Positions 1-37,180 of a stretch of 40,074 nucleotides of DNA are shown piece by piece. How positions within the stretch are numbered: position 1 is the stretch's first letter; each line of letters starts with the position of its first letter. Location: the NCBI GenBank assembly GCA_029777945.1, contig JAKORG010000027.1, positions 1 to 40,074 on the forward strand, given 5' to 3'. Under the pieces are notes generated by a model. That model saw only the letters and a program-made list of their open reading frames with translations. It did no database searches and had not been told where the DNA came from. The translations under genes and the position numbers were made by a program. The DNA is from Deltaproteobacteria bacterium. GTDB taxonomy: Bacteria; Desulfobacterota; Syntrophorhabdia; Syntrophorhabdales; Syntrophorhabdaceae.

Positions 1-789
1 AACCACCTCACAATTGCCGTCAGGTAGATATTCATTAATAAATTGTTTAACATTTTCAGTAATTAATTGGTCATCTATAATAATTTTCCTTAGGTTATGA
101 GAATAAATATCTCTAATTACACGAAAAATTATGCCAAGGTCTTGATGAAGTATACTTGGTGCCCTTATGTGTTTTGCCTTTTCCTGGATGCTCTCCCATA
201 TCCTTTTAAGAAAATTTAAATCATTTTTCAACTCTTCTTCTGTTTTTCCTTCTGATGCAGTCCTTGCAATTAATCCAAAGCCCTTAGGACATATTTCTTT
301 TAAAAGTTGTGCCAGCCTTTTCCTTTCCTTTTCATCTTCAATCCTTCTCGATACGCCTATATGCTGTATTGAAGGCATAAGAACGAGTAATCTTCCTGAA
401 AGGGTAATCTTTGATGTAACCCTTGTCCCTTTTTGACCAATAGGTTCCCTTGACACCTGCACTATAATCTCTTGACCTTCTTCGAGCACCCCTTCGATCC
501 TCTCGCTCAATTCTATAACCGGTACTGAATCGAGGTCGTCGAATTCTTCATACATCGTCCTGTCGAGAATTATGTCCCCTACGTATAAAAAGGCAGATTT
601 ATCAAGGCCTATATCAATAAATGCAGCATCCATACCTGGAACGATCCTTGAGACCCTTCCTTTGTAAATATTACCAACGATATTTTTTTCGTGTTTTCTT
701 TCAATGAAAAACTCTACAGGTATACCGTTTTCAAGAAATGCCATCCTTATTTCGCTAAAGGTTACATTAATTATGAGTTCTGAGTGCAT
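1..789 (-). CDS. rng: Ribonuclease G (RNase E/G family), N-terminal 263 codons; runs off the left edge
   Basis: Reading leftward from ATG at 787-789, the product starts MHSELIINVTFSEIRMAFLE, the typical RNase E/G opening. An S1 RNA-binding domain follows at about residues 37-125 (YKGRVSRIVPGMDAAFIDIG). Further on is the conserved block GLIARTASEGKTEEELKNDL. RNase G is a Mg-dependent endoribonuclease that processes 16S rRNA 5' ends and turns over mRNA. The catalytic aspartates lie beyond the window, so activity cannot be judged. The start is supported by an AAGGA-type ribosome binding site just upstream and by alignment with the family N terminus. The start overlaps the end of the upstream radical SAM gene by 23 bases, implying translational coupling. 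The gene continues past position 1. Confidence 0.93.
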   Translation of the reverse strand, partial: MHSELIINVTFSEIRMAFLENGIPVEFFIERKHEKNIVGNIYKGRVSRIVPGMDAAFIDIGLDKSAFLYVGDIILDRTMYEEFDDLDSVPVIELSERIEGVLEEGQEIIVQVSREPIGQKGTRVTSKITLSGRLLVLMPSIQHIGVSRRIEDEKERKRLAQLLKEICPKGFGLIARTASEGKTEEELKNDLNFLKRIWESIQEKAKHIRAPSILHQDLGIIFRVIRDIYSHNLRKIIIDDQLITENVKQFINEYLPDGNCEVV

Positions 790-3043
790 TTATCCTTCTT
801 AATTGTAATTTTATGATCCTTTTTATTTTATCATATTTTAGAAAATCTTTAATCCTCTTTGTTTTTAAGCAATAAAATATTTTATTGTTTTTTTTAAAAA
901 GCCTCTCTGCTTCCTCGCATACAAAGTCTTCATCGCAGACGATTAAATATGCAAAGTCATTTTTAATGTTTTTAATCGTGGTGTTGTATGATTCGTATAT
1001 CTTCATTCCCATTGGAAGCATTTTATTTATCCCTTTTATTAGTGCCCTATCTATTATGTTATTTAAACTTGCCTCTATCTCTATGAATTCATATGCACTT
1101 TCTATGCCCACAGGCAATGCCTCTGACATGGTGATATTCGGTAAAGGATGAAATTTTCCGTGTGTTTTTATGTGTATCCCCCATGCCTTGAATGCCCTTA
1201 ATAGGATATTCATAGTATCGAGATGCCCAATGTATTTTGCCCTTCCAAATTTTCCATAACGAAAACTCATTCTTATATAAGTTTCAGAAACCTTAGGCGT
1301 TGTATGGATGGCCTCGCTATTTTTTTCTCTGTCAAAGTTGTCAGAGTTTTTTACACAGGTAAGTCCGCAAGAGGCACAGTGGGAATAACAATTTTCTGTA
1401 TATATGCCTTTTTCGGCACGGATAAATTCTTTTATCAGAAAGGATTTATCAATGCCTGTATCTATAAAATCCCATGGCAATGGGACATCAGGGTCTTTTC
1501 CTTTCAACAACAATTCCATATCAATGCCTTTTTTTTCAAACCACTGTCTATATTTTTCAAAATCAAAGTATTCACTCCATGCCTCAAGCCTTACGTGGTT
1601 TTCTGCAAGGTATTCGAATAGGTTTGTGAGTCTTTTATCTCCCCTCGAGATTATCCCTTCTATTTGACTTACCTTTATGTCCCTGTATTTTATTCTCACA
1701 CCCTCTTTTTTTAATAATTTTTTTATAAAATCTATCTTTTCATTAATGGATTTTTCTTCATCCATAGCAAGCCACTGGAAGGGTGTGTGGGGTTTGGGCA
1801 CAAAAGGTGATATGGCAAGATTTATGTTTATTCCATGACCCTTAAACACCTTTGTAAAATCTTTTATGGTCATTAAATCATCTTCTTTTTCCCATGGGAA
1901 GCCTACCATGAGATATATCTTTATGTTTCTCCAGCCACATCTTTTAAGCACATGTAATTGACTTAAGAATTTTTCCAGTGCTATGTCTTTATTTAACCTG
2001 CATCTTAGTGTTTCTGAAGATGCCTCAAGGGCAAAAGTAAATCCTGTCCTGGCAATACCAGCTATGGTAATTATCTCTTCTTCTGATAGAGAACCTATTT
2101 TGAGAGAAGGAAGGGATATAGATGTGTTTTTATGGGCCTCTTTAACATAGGTAATTGCCTCATAGAGGTGAGAATAATCACCTGAGCTTAAAGAAAGAAA
2201 GGATATCTCTTCATAACCTGTATTTTTCAAACCGTAATCGATGATCTCTTTTAGCCTTTCAATGGAACGTTCCCTGTAAGGCCTATATCCAAAGCCTGCC
2301 ATACAGAAACGACACCCATTGCCACATCCCCTTGATATTTCAACATTTAATCTATTATGGATGCTGCCTGCCACAGGTATAGGTGGTTTTATGGGATGGG
2401 CTGAATTGTCCAGGTCTTTTATATAAAGTCTTTTTACTGACTTTTTTTCAAATAGGGGTGAATATACACCTTCTATCTTTGAGATCTGTTCGATTATTTG
2501 TCTTTTATCTTCACCTTTAATCTCTTTAAATAACCCCATTATATGAGTAAGCACCTCTTCTGCCTCACCGATTACGATCAGGTCAAAAAAGTCCTCAAAA
2601 GGTAATGGATTAAGCATAAGGGCACCACCGCCGATTACAAGGGGCAATCCTTTTCTATCTGATGCCTTAAGGGGGATGCATGAGAGTTTAAGCATATTTA
2701 ATACATTTGTAATGTTGAGCTCATAGGTTAAGGAAAAGCCTACCATGTCCATACGGTTAAGGGGTGTCTTTGATTCAAGGGTAAAAAGGGGGATATTGTG
2801 TTTTCTTAAATAGTCTTCCATATCTGTCCACGGTGCGAAACATCTTTCACACCATATTCCCTCTATGTTATTTATTAGCTCGTAGAGAAGAAAAAAGCCG
2901 TAATAGGACATGCCCACTTCATAGATGTCAGGATAGCAAAGGGCGAACCTTACTTTGACACCTTTTAAATCTTTTATTATAGTATTAGGTTCGCAGCCTA
3001 TGTATCTGGCCGGTTTTATAATATCCCTTGGAAGTGTTTTCAT
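767..3043 (-). CDS. TIGR03960-type B12-binding-like radical SAM protein with C-terminal DUF2344 domain
   Basis: This is a large radical SAM protein of unassigned substrate, usually found beside ribonuclease G. Numbered from an upstream ATG at 3115, it has an N-terminal B12-binding-like region (about 45-200). A radical SAM barrel follows with the cluster motif CGNGCRFC (Cys264, 268, 271). A Cys-rich linker comes next (ENCYSHCASCGLTC), then a C-terminal DUF2344 domain opening YIRMSFRYGKFGRAKYIGHL. I prefer the start at Met25 (3043), giving 758 residues, because family members begin just before the KPARYIG segment. Neither start has a clear ribosome binding site. It lies downstream of the phosphohexomutase gene and overlaps rng by 23 bases. 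Family members are thought to act on RNA or the translation apparatus, but that is not shown here. Confidence 0.85.
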   Translation of the reverse strand: MKTLPRDIIKPARYIGCEPNTIIKDLKGVKVRFALCYPDIYEVGMSYYGFFLLYELINNIEGIWCERCFAPWTDMEDYLRKHNIPLFTLESKTPLNRMDMVGFSLTYELNITNVLNMLKLSCIPLKASDRKGLPLVIGGGALMLNPLPFEDFFDLIVIGEAEEVLTHIMGLFKEIKGEDKRQIIEQISKIEGVYSPLFEKKSVKRLYIKDLDNSAHPIKPPIPVAGSIHNRLNVEISRGCGNGCRFCMAGFGYRPYRERSIERLKEIIDYGLKNTGYEEISFLSLSSGDYSHLYEAITYVKEAHKNTSISLPSLKIGSLSEEEIITIAGIARTGFTFALEASSETLRCRLNKDIALEKFLSQLHVLKRCGWRNIKIYLMVGFPWEKEDDLMTIKDFTKVFKGHGININLAISPFVPKPHTPFQWLAMDEEKSINEKIDFIKKLLKKEGVRIKYRDIKVSQIEGIISRGDKRLTNLFEYLAENHVRLEAWSEYFDFEKYRQWFEKKGIDMELLLKGKDPDVPLPWDFIDTGIDKSFLIKEFIRAEKGIYTENCYSHCASCGLTCVKNSDNFDREKNSEAIHTTPKVSETYIRMSFRYGKFGRAKYIGHLDTMNILLRAFKAWGIHIKTHGKFHPLPNITMSEALPVGIESAYEFIEIEASLNNIIDRALIKGINKMLPMGMKIYESYNTTIKNIKNDFAYLIVCDEDFVCEEAERLFKKNNKIFYCLKTKRIKDFLKYDKIKRIIKLQLRRINALRTHN

Positions 3044-3135
3044 AATAAAAAGCGTGTTAGCTATGTGTTTTTTTGAGACAAAAAATATACTCCCTTTAAA
3101 GTTGAAAATATGCATTTACGAATAAAGAAAAAATT

Positions 3136-32271: not shown

Positions 32272-34569
32272 TTGGACAAAAAAAGACTATCCAATCTTAT
32301 TATTTTTACGGTCATTACAGGTATATGTGGCATTGTTAGCCAGACTATACTATTAAGGGAAATGCTCATCCTTTTTTCAGGCAATGAGCTTTCCATAGGC
32401 GTAATAATCGGTTCATGGATTCTCTGGGAGGCAGGCGGTGCATACGTAGGGGGAAAAAGGCATGTAAAGAAAGAATCAAACACAGTCATACTTGTTTTAT
32501 TGACTGTTTTGTTTTCTATTTTATTTCCTGTCTCAATTTATATAACAAGGATTTTCAAGGTTATTGCAGGTATTCCCCTTGATACAGGGGCAGGAATACT
32601 GCATATTTTCTATGCATCATTTTTTATACTCTTTCCCGTGGGTTTTCTTCACGGGATGCTCTTTACCTTTATCTGTTCATTTTTTGGTGACATCTTAAAT
32701 GATAATAAGGAGTCCATTGGTAAGGTCTATTTCTATGAAATGTTAGGAACAATTGTTGGTGGCATTCTTTTAAATTATTTTTTTATCCAGTATTTTAATG
32801 CATTTACCATTGCCGTGTCTTTATCGGCAATTAGTTTTTTATCGTGCCTGCTTTTGACCTTTTCTTTTATGAATTCAGAGAAAAAAGGATATGTTGTGAT
32901 GATTGTTATGTTTTTATTTTTATCTATAATCATGCTTGCCACAGGAGGAACTGAGGCTACACACAATTATTCTGTAAGAAAACAGTGGTCAGGCAGAGAT
33001 GTAATATACTACAAGAATTCCCTTTATCAAAATATAGTGGTAGTTAAAGACCATGAACAACATACATTTTTTACCGACGGTGTTTTTGCAATAACAATTC
33101 CAGTACCAGATGTTACATTTATAGAGGATTTAATACATCTATCCATGCTATCCTACTATAGACCTGAAGACATACTTGTCTTAAGTAAAGGTGCCGGAGG
33201 CATAATCAATGAAATATTAAAGCACAGGACTGTAAAAAGGATTGATTATGTAGAGACAGACCCGGAGTTTTTGAAAACAATAGAACTCTTTTCCACAACA
33301 ACGGTAAAGAAAGAGTTAATTAACTCAAAGGTGAATCTCCATTTCATTGACGGCAGGCTGTTTTTAAAAAATTCCCATTCTAAATACGATGTCATTTTTA
33401 TTAATGTCCCACTTCCGTATACCCTTCAAACCAATCGTTTTTTTACTAAAGAATTCTTTGAAAATGTAAAGGGGGCTTTAAAATTACACGGCATTGCAAT
33501 TCTTACTCTACCAGGTTCTACCACATACTATACATCTGAATTAAAAAATCTCCATGCCTGTATATTAAAAACTATAGAATCTGTATTTTCGAATGTTTTT
33601 ATAATTCCCGGTGATTATAATATCTTTATCCTTTCAAAGATCATAGATTTTATTAATTTTGACCCTCAATGTATGTTAAACAGGCTAAAGGAAAGGCAAA
33701 TAGAGACAAAACTCATAAACGCCGTTTATCTTAAAGATCGCCTCGATATAAAAAAAAGAGAATGGTATATGTCAAATCTAAGTGGTATAAAAACAGGTAT
33801 TAATACAGATTTTTTACCTTCAGGGTTTTTTTATACCCTTTCTTACAATAACCTTCTTTATTCTCCTTATTTGAAACCTTTCTTTGAATGGATAAAACAC
33901 ATAAATTTTATAAAAATACTTATCGGTGTTTTGTCTCTTACCTTTTTATTTTTTACCCTTTCTTTTATATATGAAGGCACACCAATACTTTATTCAATAG
34001 GGACAACAGGCTTGTCATCTATTATACTTGAATTGATACTCATCTTTGCCTTTCAAATTCATTTTGGGTATGTGTTTTATGAGGTGGGTATACTTGTTAC
34101 TGTATTTCTTGGCGGCATTGCACTGGGAGGTATTGCCGCATTGGCACCGTTTATGAAAAGGTTTAAAGATATCAATGCATTTCATATTATCGAATCGTTT
34201 TTTATATTCCTTCCCTTAGGTGTATTTTTAATATTAAAGTTCACAGGCGCTTTTCTAAACACCTGTCCTTTTGTGGTCAAGGCTTTGTTTTTTCTTTTAT
34301 TATTTATATCAGGATTATGCACAGGTATAGAATTTCCAATAGGTAGTCGTCTATACGGAGAGACAGGCAAAAAGGAAAAGACTGTGGCAAACATTGTAGG
34401 CCACCTCTATAGTATTGACCTGATTGGAGGTTGTATAGGCGGTTTTTTAGGCGGCATGGTGCTCTCCATCATAGGCATTTTAGAGGCCTGTATCATCCTT
34501 TCCATTTTAAAAATGGGTAGCCTTTTCCTTTTATTGACATATAAGAAAAACATGGTATTATCTCATTGA
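32272..34569 (+). CDS. Polytopic membrane protein with spermidine-synthase-like (SAM-fold) domain
   Basis: Membrane segments flank a soluble methyltransferase-fold domain. About seven helices lie in residues 8-225, the soluble domain is about 235-460, and six or seven helices lie in 546-757. The soluble part resembles polyamine aminopropyltransferases (RIDYVETDPEFLKTIELF, then TNRFFTKEFFENVKGALK). However, the SAM glycine loop is KGAGG (306-310) instead of GGGDG, and the catalytic Asp region is FINVPLPYT (376-384) instead of D-x-x-D-P. Ordinary spermidine synthesis is therefore doubtful. TTG at 32272 is the likely start, four bases after PBP1A, with a weak AGAAG site. The end overlaps the radical SAM gene. 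The true role is unknown; its neighbours suggest a link to the AmmeMemoRadiSam proteins. Confidence 0.8.
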   Translation: MDKKRLSNLIIFTVITGICGIVSQTILLREMLILFSGNELSIGVIIGSWILWEAGGAYVGGKRHVKKESNTVILVLLTVLFSILFPVSIYITRIFKVIAGIPLDTGAGILHIFYASFFILFPVGFLHGMLFTFICSFFGDILNDNKESIGKVYFYEMLGTIVGGILLNYFFIQYFNAFTIAVSLSAISFLSCLLLTFSFMNSEKKGYVVMIVMFLFLSIIMLATGGTEATHNYSVRKQWSGRDVIYYKNSLYQNIVVVKDHEQHTFFTDGVFAITIPVPDVTFIEDLIHLSMLSYYRPEDILVLSKGAGGIINEILKHRTVKRIDYVETDPEFLKTIELFSTTTVKKELINSKVNLHFIDGRLFLKNSHSKYDVIFINVPLPYTLQTNRFFTKEFFENVKGALKLHGIAILTLPGSTTYYTSELKNLHACILKTIESVFSNVFIIPGDYNIFILSKIIDFINFDPQCMLNRLKERQIETKLINAVYLKDRLDIKKREWYMSNLSGIKTGINTDFLPSGFFYTLSYNNLLYSPYLKPFFEWIKHINFIKILIGVLSLTFLFFTLSFIYEGTPILYSIGTTGLSSIILELILIFAFQIHFGYVFYEVGILVTVFLGGIALGGIAALAPFMKRFKDINAFHIIESFFIFLPLGVFLILKFTGAFLNTCPFVVKALFFLLLFISGLCTGIEFPIGSRLYGETGKKEKTVANIVGHLYSIDLIGGCIGGFLGGMVLSIIGILEACIILSILKMGSLFLLLTYKKNMVLSH

Positions 34570-35684
34570 TGGGTTTAAAAAGAAGGGATTTTTTAAAAAT
34601 CGCAATATTTACACCTTTGGCCTTAAGGCTTGAGGCTAAAGATTATATCCACAGAAAAGATAATGGATTAAAAGAGGCATCCTATTACATCCAGTATGAC
34701 AGAAAAAAGAATTTAGTTATGTGTAACCTATGCCCAAGGGAATGCATAATAGAAGAGGGTGAAAAGGGATTTTGTAGGGCAAGGAAAAATATAAAAGGCA
34801 AACTCTATCCCCTTGGATACGCTAAACCCTGTGCAGTGCACATTGATCCTATTGAAAAAAAGCCTTTTTTCCATGTCCTACCTAAGACATTGAGTTTTTC
34901 CATTGCCAGTGCAGGATGTAATCTAAGATGTCGTTACTGTCAGAACTGGCAGATATCACAGGTCTCTCCTGAAGATACTATAAACGAGGATTTGCCCCCT
35001 GAGAAGGTAGTAGAGCTTGCATTAAAGAATGGTTCCAAGAGTATTGCCTACACTTATACAGAGCCTACAAATTTTTTTGAATACATGCTTGACACGGCAA
35101 AGATTGCAAAAAAGAAAAATATATTAAATGTTGTCCATTCCAATGGTTTTATAAATCCTGAGCCTTTGAGAGAACTCTGTAAATATCTCGATGCAGTAAA
35201 CATTGATTTAAAGGGTTTTAATCCTTCTTTTTATAAAAAATACTGTGAGGCAGAGCTTACCCCTGTCCTTGAAACCTTGAAAATATTAAAAAAGTCTGGT
35301 GTATGGGTGGAGATAACAAACCTTGTAATAGGTGGTCATAACGATGAGCCTGAGTTAATTGAAAAGATGTGTGAATGGATAAAAAAAGAGTTAGGCATTG
35401 ATGTGCCGATTCATTTCTCCCGTTTTTTTCCCATGTATAAAATGAGAAATATCGCTCCCACACCAGTTAGTGCCTTAGAAAGGGCAAAGGATATTGCCCA
35501 GAAAATGGGTTTAAAATATGTTTACATCGGTAATGTCCCAGGTCATGTTGGAGAAAATACGTATTGTCCTGTGTGCAAAAAACCTGTAATAAAAAGGGTA
35601 GGGTATACTATACTGGAGATAAATATAAAAAAAGGGAGATGTAAGTATTGTGGTGAAAGGATAGACGGGATATGGGAGATATAA
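34569..35684 (+). CDS. amrS: AmmeMemoRadiSam system radical SAM enzyme with twin-arginine motif
   Basis: Radical SAM enzyme of the TIGR04337 type, found with MEMO and AMMECR1 proteins; its substrate is unknown. From ATG 34569 (371 residues) it begins MGLKRRDFLKIAIFTPLALR. This carries the twin-arginine motif RRDFLK and a short hydrophobic stretch ending near LEAKD. An N-terminal Cys motif MCNLCPRECI with a later Cys69 precedes the barrel. The SAM cluster is GCNLRCRYC (Cys117, 121, 124). A C-terminal zinc-ribbon-like part has CPVC and CKYC. ATG 34569 overlaps the upstream TGA by one base; a TTG one codon earlier is less likely. It overlaps the next gene by 13 bases. If exported, the enzyme would be apart from cytoplasmic SAM. 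Confidence 0.88.
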   Translation: MGLKRRDFLKIAIFTPLALRLEAKDYIHRKDNGLKEASYYIQYDRKKNLVMCNLCPRECIIEEGEKGFCRARKNIKGKLYPLGYAKPCAVHIDPIEKKPFFHVLPKTLSFSIASAGCNLRCRYCQNWQISQVSPEDTINEDLPPEKVVELALKNGSKSIAYTYTEPTNFFEYMLDTAKIAKKKNILNVVHSNGFINPEPLRELCKYLDAVNIDLKGFNPSFYKKYCEAELTPVLETLKILKKSGVWVEITNLVIGGHNDEPELIEKMCEWIKKELGIDVPIHFSRFFPMYKMRNIAPTPVSALERAKDIAQKMGLKYVYIGNVPGHVGENTYCPVCKKPVIKRVGYTILEINIKKGRCKYCGERIDGIWEI

Positions 35685-37180
35685 AGAGATTATATGTTTT
35701 TATGTTTTTTTTGATGTTTCTCGGCCTTTTTAGCAATATATATAATGCATATGGTCAAGGTATTAAAGAACCAGTATTTGCAGGCCTTTTTTATCCAAAA
35801 GAAAAAAACGAACTGGAAAGGCAGATTATTAATTACTTAAATAATGCTGAAAAAAAACAAGAGAAGATCAGGCAGCACATATTCGGCCTTATATCACCCC
35901 ATGCCGGTTATGAATATTCAGGTGGTGTTGCTGCATATGGATTTAGTCAGATTAAAGGTAGGCCTTATAAGACTGTAATTATCATAGGCACAAGCCACAG
36001 GGTGCCCTTCAGGGGCATATCCATTTATCCTGAAGGACAATGGAAGACACCCATTGGGAATATTGTCGTTGATGGTGAATTTTCAAAAGTCCTTATGAAA
36101 GAGTGTCCACAGCTTAAAACGTATACACTGCCCTTTGCCAATGAACATTCTATTGAAGTCCAATTACCCTTTCTCCAGATGGTATTAAAGGATTTTAAAA
36201 TCATACCACTCATAACAGGTGGAATGGAAAAGACAGATTATAACGATTATGTAGATGCATTTGTTAGATTGATAAAAACACATCCAAAGGATTTTCTAAT
36301 CGTGGCTTCAACGGATATGTCCCACTACCATGATTACAGCAAGGCAAAATCCATAGATGCATTGACTTTAAGGCATATGGAAAATATGGATGTTGATGGG
36401 CTAATTAGAGATTTAGAAAGGGAGAAATGCGAACTGTGCGGTCCCCATGGTGCCATAATGCTTATTATGATGGTTAGAAGGCTAAACGGAGCGGTAAAAA
36501 TTTTGCAGTATGCCAATTCAGGTGATGTTACGGGAGATAGGTCGAGGGTAGTGGGCTATAGTTCCGTTGCCTTTTTTTACAAAGATAATGAAAAATCTTT
36601 AGACCAGCAAAAAGAAGGAAAAAAGGATACAACAAAAGGGGAACTATCAAAAAGCGAAGAGAAACTTCTTTTGGAAATAGCCAGAAAAACCCTTGAAGAA
36701 TATGTAGTAAGGGAAAAAGTTCCTGATTTTGATATTAAAGATAAAAAACTTATTGAAAAAAGGGGTGTGTTTGTTACATTAAAGAAAAGGGGAGAATTGA
36801 GAGGGTGCATAGGTTATATCGAACCTGTTTTACCTTTATACAAGGCCGTTGTAGATATGACGATTGCTGCATCTACAAGGGATATGAGGTTCCTTCCTGT
36901 CCATAAAGGCGAATTAAAAGAGATAAAGATCGAGATTTCTGTATTATCACCCCTTAAACGCATAAACAACATAGAAGAAATAGAAATAGGAAGACACGGT
37001 CTTTTAGTAAAAAAAGGTAGTTATTCAGGTTTACTTTTACCCCAGGTCGCATTAGAATATGGCTGGGATAGGGAGGAATTTTTAAAACAAACTTGCATTA
37101 AGGCTGGTCTTTACAGAAATGCATGGAAAGAAAAACAAACAGAGATTTATATCTTTTCTGCCCAGATTATATCGGAATAG
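35672..37180 (+). CDS. AmmeMemoRadiSam system MEMO-AMMECR1 (protein B/A) fusion with signal peptide
   Basis: Single 502-residue chain joining two partners that are separate genes in many genomes. An N-terminal Sec-type signal (basic IKR, hydrophobic core about 8-20, likely cleavage near NAYG) is followed by a MEMO1-like domain (about 33-305). Its conserved His-bearing motifs are SPHAGYEYSGG, GTSHRVPF, NEHSIEVQLPFLQ, STDMSHYHDY and GPHGAIM. A charged linker (about 305-330) leads to an AMMECR1 domain with the signature LRGCIGYIEP (Cys379). Presumed to work with the radical SAM enzyme; the reaction is unknown. The start is ATG 35672, overlapping the radical SAM gene by 13 bases. It is the last gene of the PBP1A operon and stops with TAG. 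Confidence 0.88.
   Translation: MGDIKRLYVFMFFLMFLGLFSNIYNAYGQGIKEPVFAGLFYPKEKNELERQIINYLNNAEKKQEKIRQHIFGLISPHAGYEYSGGVAAYGFSQIKGRPYKTVIIIGTSHRVPFRGISIYPEGQWKTPIGNIVVDGEFSKVLMKECPQLKTYTLPFANEHSIEVQLPFLQMVLKDFKIIPLITGGMEKTDYNDYVDAFVRLIKTHPKDFLIVASTDMSHYHDYSKAKSIDALTLRHMENMDVDGLIRDLEREKCELCGPHGAIMLIMMVRRLNGAVKILQYANSGDVTGDRSRVVGYSSVAFFYKDNEKSLDQQKEGKKDTTKGELSKSEEKLLLEIARKTLEEYVVREKVPDFDIKDKKLIEKRGVFVTLKKRGELRGCIGYIEPVLPLYKAVVDMTIAASTRDMRFLPVHKGELKEIKIEISVLSPLKRINNIEEIEIGRHGLLVKKGSYSGLLLPQVALEYGWDREEFLKQTCIKAGLYRNAWKEKQTEIYIFSAQIISE

Follow-up and report, generated by a model that had tools for sequence, protein, structure and literature searches.

Radical S-adenosylmethionine (SAM) enzymes are regarded as cytoplasmic because the cytoplasm holds SAM and low-potential electrons and is where iron-sulfur clusters are assembled. 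One of them belongs to the AmmeMemoRadiSam system, together with MEMO and AMMECR1, whose human relatives (MEMO1 and AMMECR1) are disease-linked and poorly understood. In the open-access literature we found no established biochemical activity for any member of this system, no description of its export, and no paper that, by these terms, treats radical SAM enzymes as exported, periplasmic or lipoproteins; the name AmmeMemoRadiSam appears in five papers, a single time in each. Here we analyze a stretch of 40,074 nucleotides (hereafter, the window; positions 1 to 40,074 of contig JAKORG010000027.1, GenBank assembly GCA_029777945.1) from a Deltaproteobacteria bacterium of the family Syntrophorhabdaceae, which carries a three-gene AmmeMemoRadiSam cassette with predicted export signals. 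The cassette resembles the described system in that all three components score above their curated cut-offs, with conserved cluster motif and MEMO metal-site positions. It differs in having a twin-arginine translocation (Tat) signal on the radical SAM enzyme, a Sec signal on the MEMO-AMMECR1 fusion, and a fourth component, a membrane protein that we call mSpd.

All cassette features are on the forward strand. The mSpd gene (32272..34569) encodes a 765-residue membrane protein, the exported-type radical SAM gene (34569..35684) overlaps the mSpd stop codon by one base (TGATG at 34567-34571; its start is the ATG at 34569, with a TTG alternative at 34566), and the fusion gene (35672..37180) shares 13 bases with the radical SAM gene (35672-35684). 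Open reading frames and profile matches thus bear out the original prediction of three overlapping genes and their families. The radical SAM enzyme is a TIGR04337 protein (E 7e-112; 373.7 bits, cut-off 220) and the fusion combines TIGR04336 (MEMO; E 3e-84; 282.5 bits, cut-off 26) with TIGR04335 (AMMECR1; E 4e-55; 185.9 bits, cut-off 99). In mSpd, a PF01564 match (E 1.3e-20) lies within a polytopic protein that exceeds the cut-off of NF037959 (fused major facilitator superfamily [MFS]/spermidine synthase; 42.4 vs 40 bits), and both parts are present. The radical SAM enzyme begins with MGLKRRDFLKIAIFTPLALRLEA, which includes the twin-arginine motif RRDFLK (residues 5-10; 34581..34598), and its cluster motif CxxxCxxC (C117, C121 and C124; 34917..34940) is invariant. 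The N-terminus of the fusion, MGDIKRLYVFMFFLMFLGLFSNIYNAYGQ, is a predicted Sec-type signal peptide (about residues 1-28; 35672..35755), followed by the MEMO domain (35771..36568), in which H77, H109, D215, H218 and C256 are invariant and presumably equivalent to the MEMO1 metal site, and by the AMMECR1 domain (36671..37168).

To describe the distribution of export signals, we scored them by our own rule, based on regular expressions and hydropathy. Among 94 unique TIGR04337 proteins, 72 carry a signal (Tat: 60; Tat plus lipobox: 5; Sec or transmembrane: 7), 20 are signal-less, cytoplasmic-looking and have no mSpd nearby, and two mSpd-adjacent proteins from Bacteroidales have imperfect Tat motifs. 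A single branch of the core-domain tree (SH-like approximate likelihood ratio test [SH-aLRT]: 99) divides exported (74) from cytoplasmic (19) proteins, the latter sampled only from relatives of the window. On the exported side, 72 of 74 proteins bear Tat, Tat plus lipobox, Sec or Sec plus lipobox signals. The signals read from two members of the cassette are conserved in relatives, and most homologues have them. Three positions of the N-terminal extension (R5, R6 and F8) are nearly invariant, and the remainder is variable. Similarly, MEMO-AMMECR1 fusions from Cloacimonadota, Chloroflexi, Elusimicrobia, Eisenbacteria and other groups have lipoprotein or Sec signals, and stand-alone MEMO proteins are mostly signal-less, with one exception (L208) that has a possible lipobox.

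The strongest sequence argument that this location is real is that signal types swap between lineages while export is kept. It also bears on the explanation that the N-terminal signals are misleading and the proteins remain cytoplasmic or merely membrane-anchored. The characterised radical SAM enzymes known to us have their iron-sulfur cluster, SAM and low-potential electrons in the cytoplasm, as this explanation would have it, and some relatives have Sec-type signals, which would be unable to export a folded cluster. However, Sec types occur where TatC is missing: allowing for the incompleteness of metagenome-assembled genomes, TatC is missing in 7/10 genomes with a Sec-type enzyme vs 1/16 with a Tat-type enzyme (Fisher's exact test: p-value 0.0013). 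The window genome encodes TatC (two matches), and in a control comparison of its 30 best radical SAM proteins, the Tat motif was found only in the window enzyme. We therefore consider misleading signals very unlikely, and the extracytoplasmic location of the radical SAM enzyme and the fusion is strongly supported by these sequence patterns.

The same genome encodes a further TIGR04337 copy beside lon, which has no N-terminal extension or signal and is, by its sequence, predicted to be cytoplasmic, and a separate signal-less set of a stand-alone MEMO followed by AMMECR1. The window set is thus a second, dedicated copy. TIGR04337 is present in 59/60 relatives, often in two copies of ~340 and ~375-385 residues. 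In long copies, RRxF[LIVM]K near the N-terminus is followed by a hydrophobic stretch, and the cassette fusions have hydrophobic Sec-type signals. Of 40 relative loci that were retrieved, 28 have the order mSpd, radical SAM gene and MEMO-AMMECR1 fusion, with the long copy, and genomes of the same family that have only the short copy (G002, G010, G011, G018, G019 and G024) lack mSpd. The gene order of the cassette is conserved across the order Syntrophorhabdales. Many members of the order have an M29-type aminopeptidase gene downstream of it (L078, L079, L082, L084, L088-L090, L094, L096 and L098).

In the window, a PBP1A gene lies 3 bases upstream of the cassette, and the two are also adjacent in the closest genera, an arrangement that would suit a cassette that modifies the cell wall and is linked to PBP1A. 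This adjacency is limited to the window and those genera, for which reason PBP1A was rejected as a conserved neighbour, and no cell-wall gene recurs at other cassettes or beside other pairs of mSpd and radical SAM genes. Such a cassette has, in our view, a very slim chance of being the explanation. The original prediction's link to the cell wall is accordingly not retained, and its broader notion of envelope modification is possible.

The AlphaFold model of mSpd (predicted local distance difference test: 87; predicted template modelling score: 0.86) consists of seven helices, a domain at residues ~240-540, and seven further helices. Structure comparison with VIA-align matched the membrane part to MFS proteins (Z up to 26 for SV2A and 22.5 for SLC15A4; ~355-385 residues aligned) and the domain to spermidine synthases (Z up to 28). 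As modelled, mSpd would therefore be a full MFS transporter fold into which a synthase-like, outward-facing domain is inserted. Helices 1-7 (residues 3-223; 32278..32940) would start from a cytoplasmic N-terminus, the spermidine-synthase-like Rossmann domain (32989..33891) is predicted to be extracytoplasmic, and helices 8-14 (residues 546-764; 33907..34563) would end in a cytoplasmic C-terminus. Charge counts agree with this topology: inside loops contain 15-21 lysines plus arginines per protein vs 3-6 outside (21 aligned proteins), and over 94 sequences, all of which place the domain outside, the means were 22.6 and 3.9, respectively. A six-helix MFS half would keep its middle loop inside; in mSpd, one additional helix before the insert and one after it would put the domain outside.

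The pocket of this domain combines conserved and altered residues. The nucleoside-holding residues of spermidine synthases are kept (E328, D330, D360, G307 and G310, of which the first three are invariant). At the glycine-rich SAM-site motif (KGAGG, residues 306-310; 33187..33201; GGAGG in most relatives), the acidic residue of GGDGG/GGEGA that selects decarboxylated SAM (dcSAM) is alanine in 80/94 sequences and acidic in none of the counts listed. The catalytic aspartate of DxxDP is asparagine in the window and glycine in 83/94 sequences; only 1/94 has Asp. The region after it now holds an NRFFT motif (residues 388-392; 33433..33447), with N388 in 93/94 and R389 in 94/94 sequences, and E285 is conserved together with N388/R389. 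No PF02675 (SpeD) match was found in the window genome (97% complete) or in 24/28 other mSpd genomes (25/29 in total), and dcSAM is thus an unlikely ligand. We take it that mSpd probably binds a SAM-like ligand and infer a switch from dcSAM to SAM; the invariant R389 could face the SAM carboxylate. The membrane "SAM-fold" partner of the original prediction stands as regards the probable ligand, and its fuller identity is an MFS fold with an inserted outward domain.

Annotation models name this family polyamine aminopropyltransferase, which would make mSpd a plain membrane spermidine synthase and its clustering with the cassette incidental. The loss of the catalytic aspartate, the missing SpeD, the outward domain and a PRK03612 score of 138.8 against a cut-off of 472 all speak against this, and we regard it as almost certainly wrong; a spermidine synthase was rejected on the catalytic residues, the SpeD absence and the score.

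The mSpd alignment was then scanned against one genome per species, which gave 80 loci from many phyla, and cassette loci were left out of the partner count (63 loci remaining). A radical SAM gene lies within two genes of mSpd in 51 of the 63, directly adjoining it in 50, and all but one of these 50 are on the same strand as mSpd, mostly overlapping or within ~15 bases. Since loci were picked by mSpd similarity alone, the pairing is not a selection effect. Together with the 28 relative loci of conserved order, these distant loci uphold the membrane protein as a conserved neighbour. The partner place is filled by two radical SAM families, TIGR04337 (upstream) and a PflX-like family (downstream). 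In nine Bacteroidales loci (L099, L104, L110, L116, L121, L126, L141, L143 and L150), two or three diverged, exported TIGR04337 enzymes stand in tandem upstream of mSpd. The PflX-like family (L101, L105, L109, L125, L129, L140 and about 25 more loci beside mSpd) is characterised by the motif CxLCPRxCGVNRLxGxxGFC ... SGTIFLTHCNLRCVFCQNWE and by Tat, Tat plus lipobox or Sec-lipobox signals. By the same rule, 33/35 of its proteins have a Tat, Tat plus lipobox, Sec or Sec plus lipobox signal. It did not reach the cut-off of any curated NCBIfam equivalog, and sequence comparison gave no relative of solved structure. Several of the 12 loci that have no radical SAM gene within two genes are at contig ends. 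Others among them encode a SPASM radical SAM protein and an exported flavoprotein (L087), a flavoprotein (L117 and L131), or an exported isoaspartyl methyltransferase (L127).

We propose that the cassette represents a branch of the AmmeMemoRadiSam system that works outside the cytoplasm, with mSpd supplying or handling SAM there, a reading to which we give about an even chance. The radical SAM enzyme would acquire its iron-sulfur cluster and fold in the cytoplasm before Tat export, the fusion would be exported by Sec, and both would act at the outer surface of the cytoplasmic membrane, where mSpd, through its outward domain, would supply or handle SAM for them. Most likely mSpd would move SAM outward, and the domain, re-tuned from dcSAM to SAM, would capture the ligand or pass it on. 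Gene order, signals, fold, topology and residue changes are given by sequence and modelling; SAM as the ligand, the direction of transport and contact between the proteins go beyond these, and it is from pocket, topology and partners that we infer a SAM transporter. An earlier genome-context study reportedly connected MEMO with the modification of bases and isoprenoids; an isoprenoid substrate in the membrane would fit the outer-face location. In the wider form of this proposal, many anaerobic phyla would carry out radical SAM chemistry on the far side of the cytoplasmic membrane, through two distinct exported families that depend on a dedicated SAM-exporting MFS protein for an extracytoplasmic SAM supply. 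Our confidence in this extension is tentative, somewhat short of even.

Several observations weigh against the proposed branch. In other Desulfobacterota families, divergent homologues of mSpd have no radical SAM gene beside them, and their neighbours are mixed and share no theme. In the Bacteroidales genomes checked that have exported radical SAM enzymes and mSpd, only signal-less MEMO proteins were found. In Endomicrobia, a PflX-like radical SAM gene beside mSpd (L112) lacks any signal that we could recognise, even though the genome encodes TatC. It is difficult to account for the export of an iron-sulfur enzyme by Sec, and the signals were assigned by our rule and not by SignalP or TatP. 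One 100% complete genome (G059) encodes an exported radical SAM enzyme but not mSpd, and genomes that lack mSpd (G002, G019, G056 and G059) encode exported isoaspartyl methyltransferases; therefore, either there is a further route for SAM or mSpd is dispensable. The association between these methyltransferases and mSpd is weak (p-value 0.045, from genomes that are not independent), and for this reason they were dropped as an independent test of SAM supply.

The possibility of another SAM route leaves room for mSpd to act downstream, that is, to recover or clear 5'-deoxyadenosine, methionine or methylthioadenosine, or to sense SAM, with SAM reaching the outside otherwise. Solved relatives of the domain (3anx and 2hte) bind methylthioadenosine, in keeping with such a role. 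However, these clusters showed no further candidate for a SAM carrier, and the invariant arginine near the former amine site would suit a carboxylate, which spent nucleosides do not have. A downstream role seems distinctly unlikely to us. Alternatively, mSpd could itself be an extracytoplasmic enzyme that uses SAM as the donor of a group (e.g., aminocarboxypropyl) for a lipid or wall substrate, which its MFS part would move, with the radical SAM enzyme acting on the same substrate. The kept nucleoside pocket and the strictly conserved new motif (N388/R389 with E285) would be expected of an enzyme, and the full-length MFS fold could carry the substrate. Set against this are the loss of the catalytic aspartate of the parent enzyme and the switching of partners between two radical SAM families, and such an enzyme would still need SAM outside. 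We think this explanation unlikely, and prefer mSpd as the supplier or handler of SAM.

Other exported proteins were found near mSpd or in related genomes. Protein-L-isoaspartate methyltransferases with Sec or lipoprotein signals (L087:7212-8003 and L127:22-804; also L224, L226-L229, L235, L253-L256 and others, in genomes with and without mSpd) are SAM-dependent enzymes that, from these signals, are apparently outside the cytoplasm. SagB-type nitroreductase-family proteins with signal peptides lie beside mSpd at five loci (L108, L135, L087, L117 and L131), and the two from Spirochaetales (L108 and L135) additionally encode a NosR-like membrane protein with FMN_bind and Fer4_5 domains. At these two loci, the flavoprotein and the FMN_bind/Fer4_5 protein form a plausible electron path. 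As neighbours, the methyltransferase, the SagB-type flavoprotein and the NosR-like protein fit an extracytoplasmic reading. Rfam and tRNA scans of the window gave no match, and elsewhere in it a separate radical SAM protein, a fusion of Radical_SAM_N2 and DUF2344 on the reverse strand (770-3115), has no Tat motif.

If there is a conserved branch that is exported and has a membrane partner of its own, the rule that radical SAM enzymes are confined to the cytoplasm would no longer hold, and a SAM supply outside the membrane would be implied. The AmmeMemoRadiSam system would gain a cellular location and a fourth component, and its function would become testable. Among solved structures, the radical SAM domain is closest to pyruvate formate-lyase activating enzyme and its relatives (3c8f, E 6e-13); unlike the window enzyme, this cytoplasmic activator of glycyl radical enzymes has no export signal. 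Besides exceeding the NF037959 cut-off, mSpd aligns through its N-terminal helices and synthase domain with membrane SpeE (PRK03612). From both families it differs by the loss of the catalytic and dcSAM-selecting aspartates, a second seven-helix block, the outward domain, and the pairing with exported radical SAM enzymes. In PRK03612-type membrane spermidine synthases in general, the N-terminal helices correspond by alignment to helices 1-7 of mSpd. Should they, too, number seven, the synthase domain of these proteins may likewise lie outside, which would cast doubt on the annotation. No bacterial protein is known to us that exports SAM for the use of extracytoplasmic enzymes. Known SAM carriers (SLC25A26 and those of rickettsiae and chlamydiae) import SAM, either into an organelle or into a cell. 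If our hypothesis holds, mSpd would share with them the passage of SAM across a membrane, but they have other folds, whereas mSpd has an MFS fold with an outward SAM-type domain.

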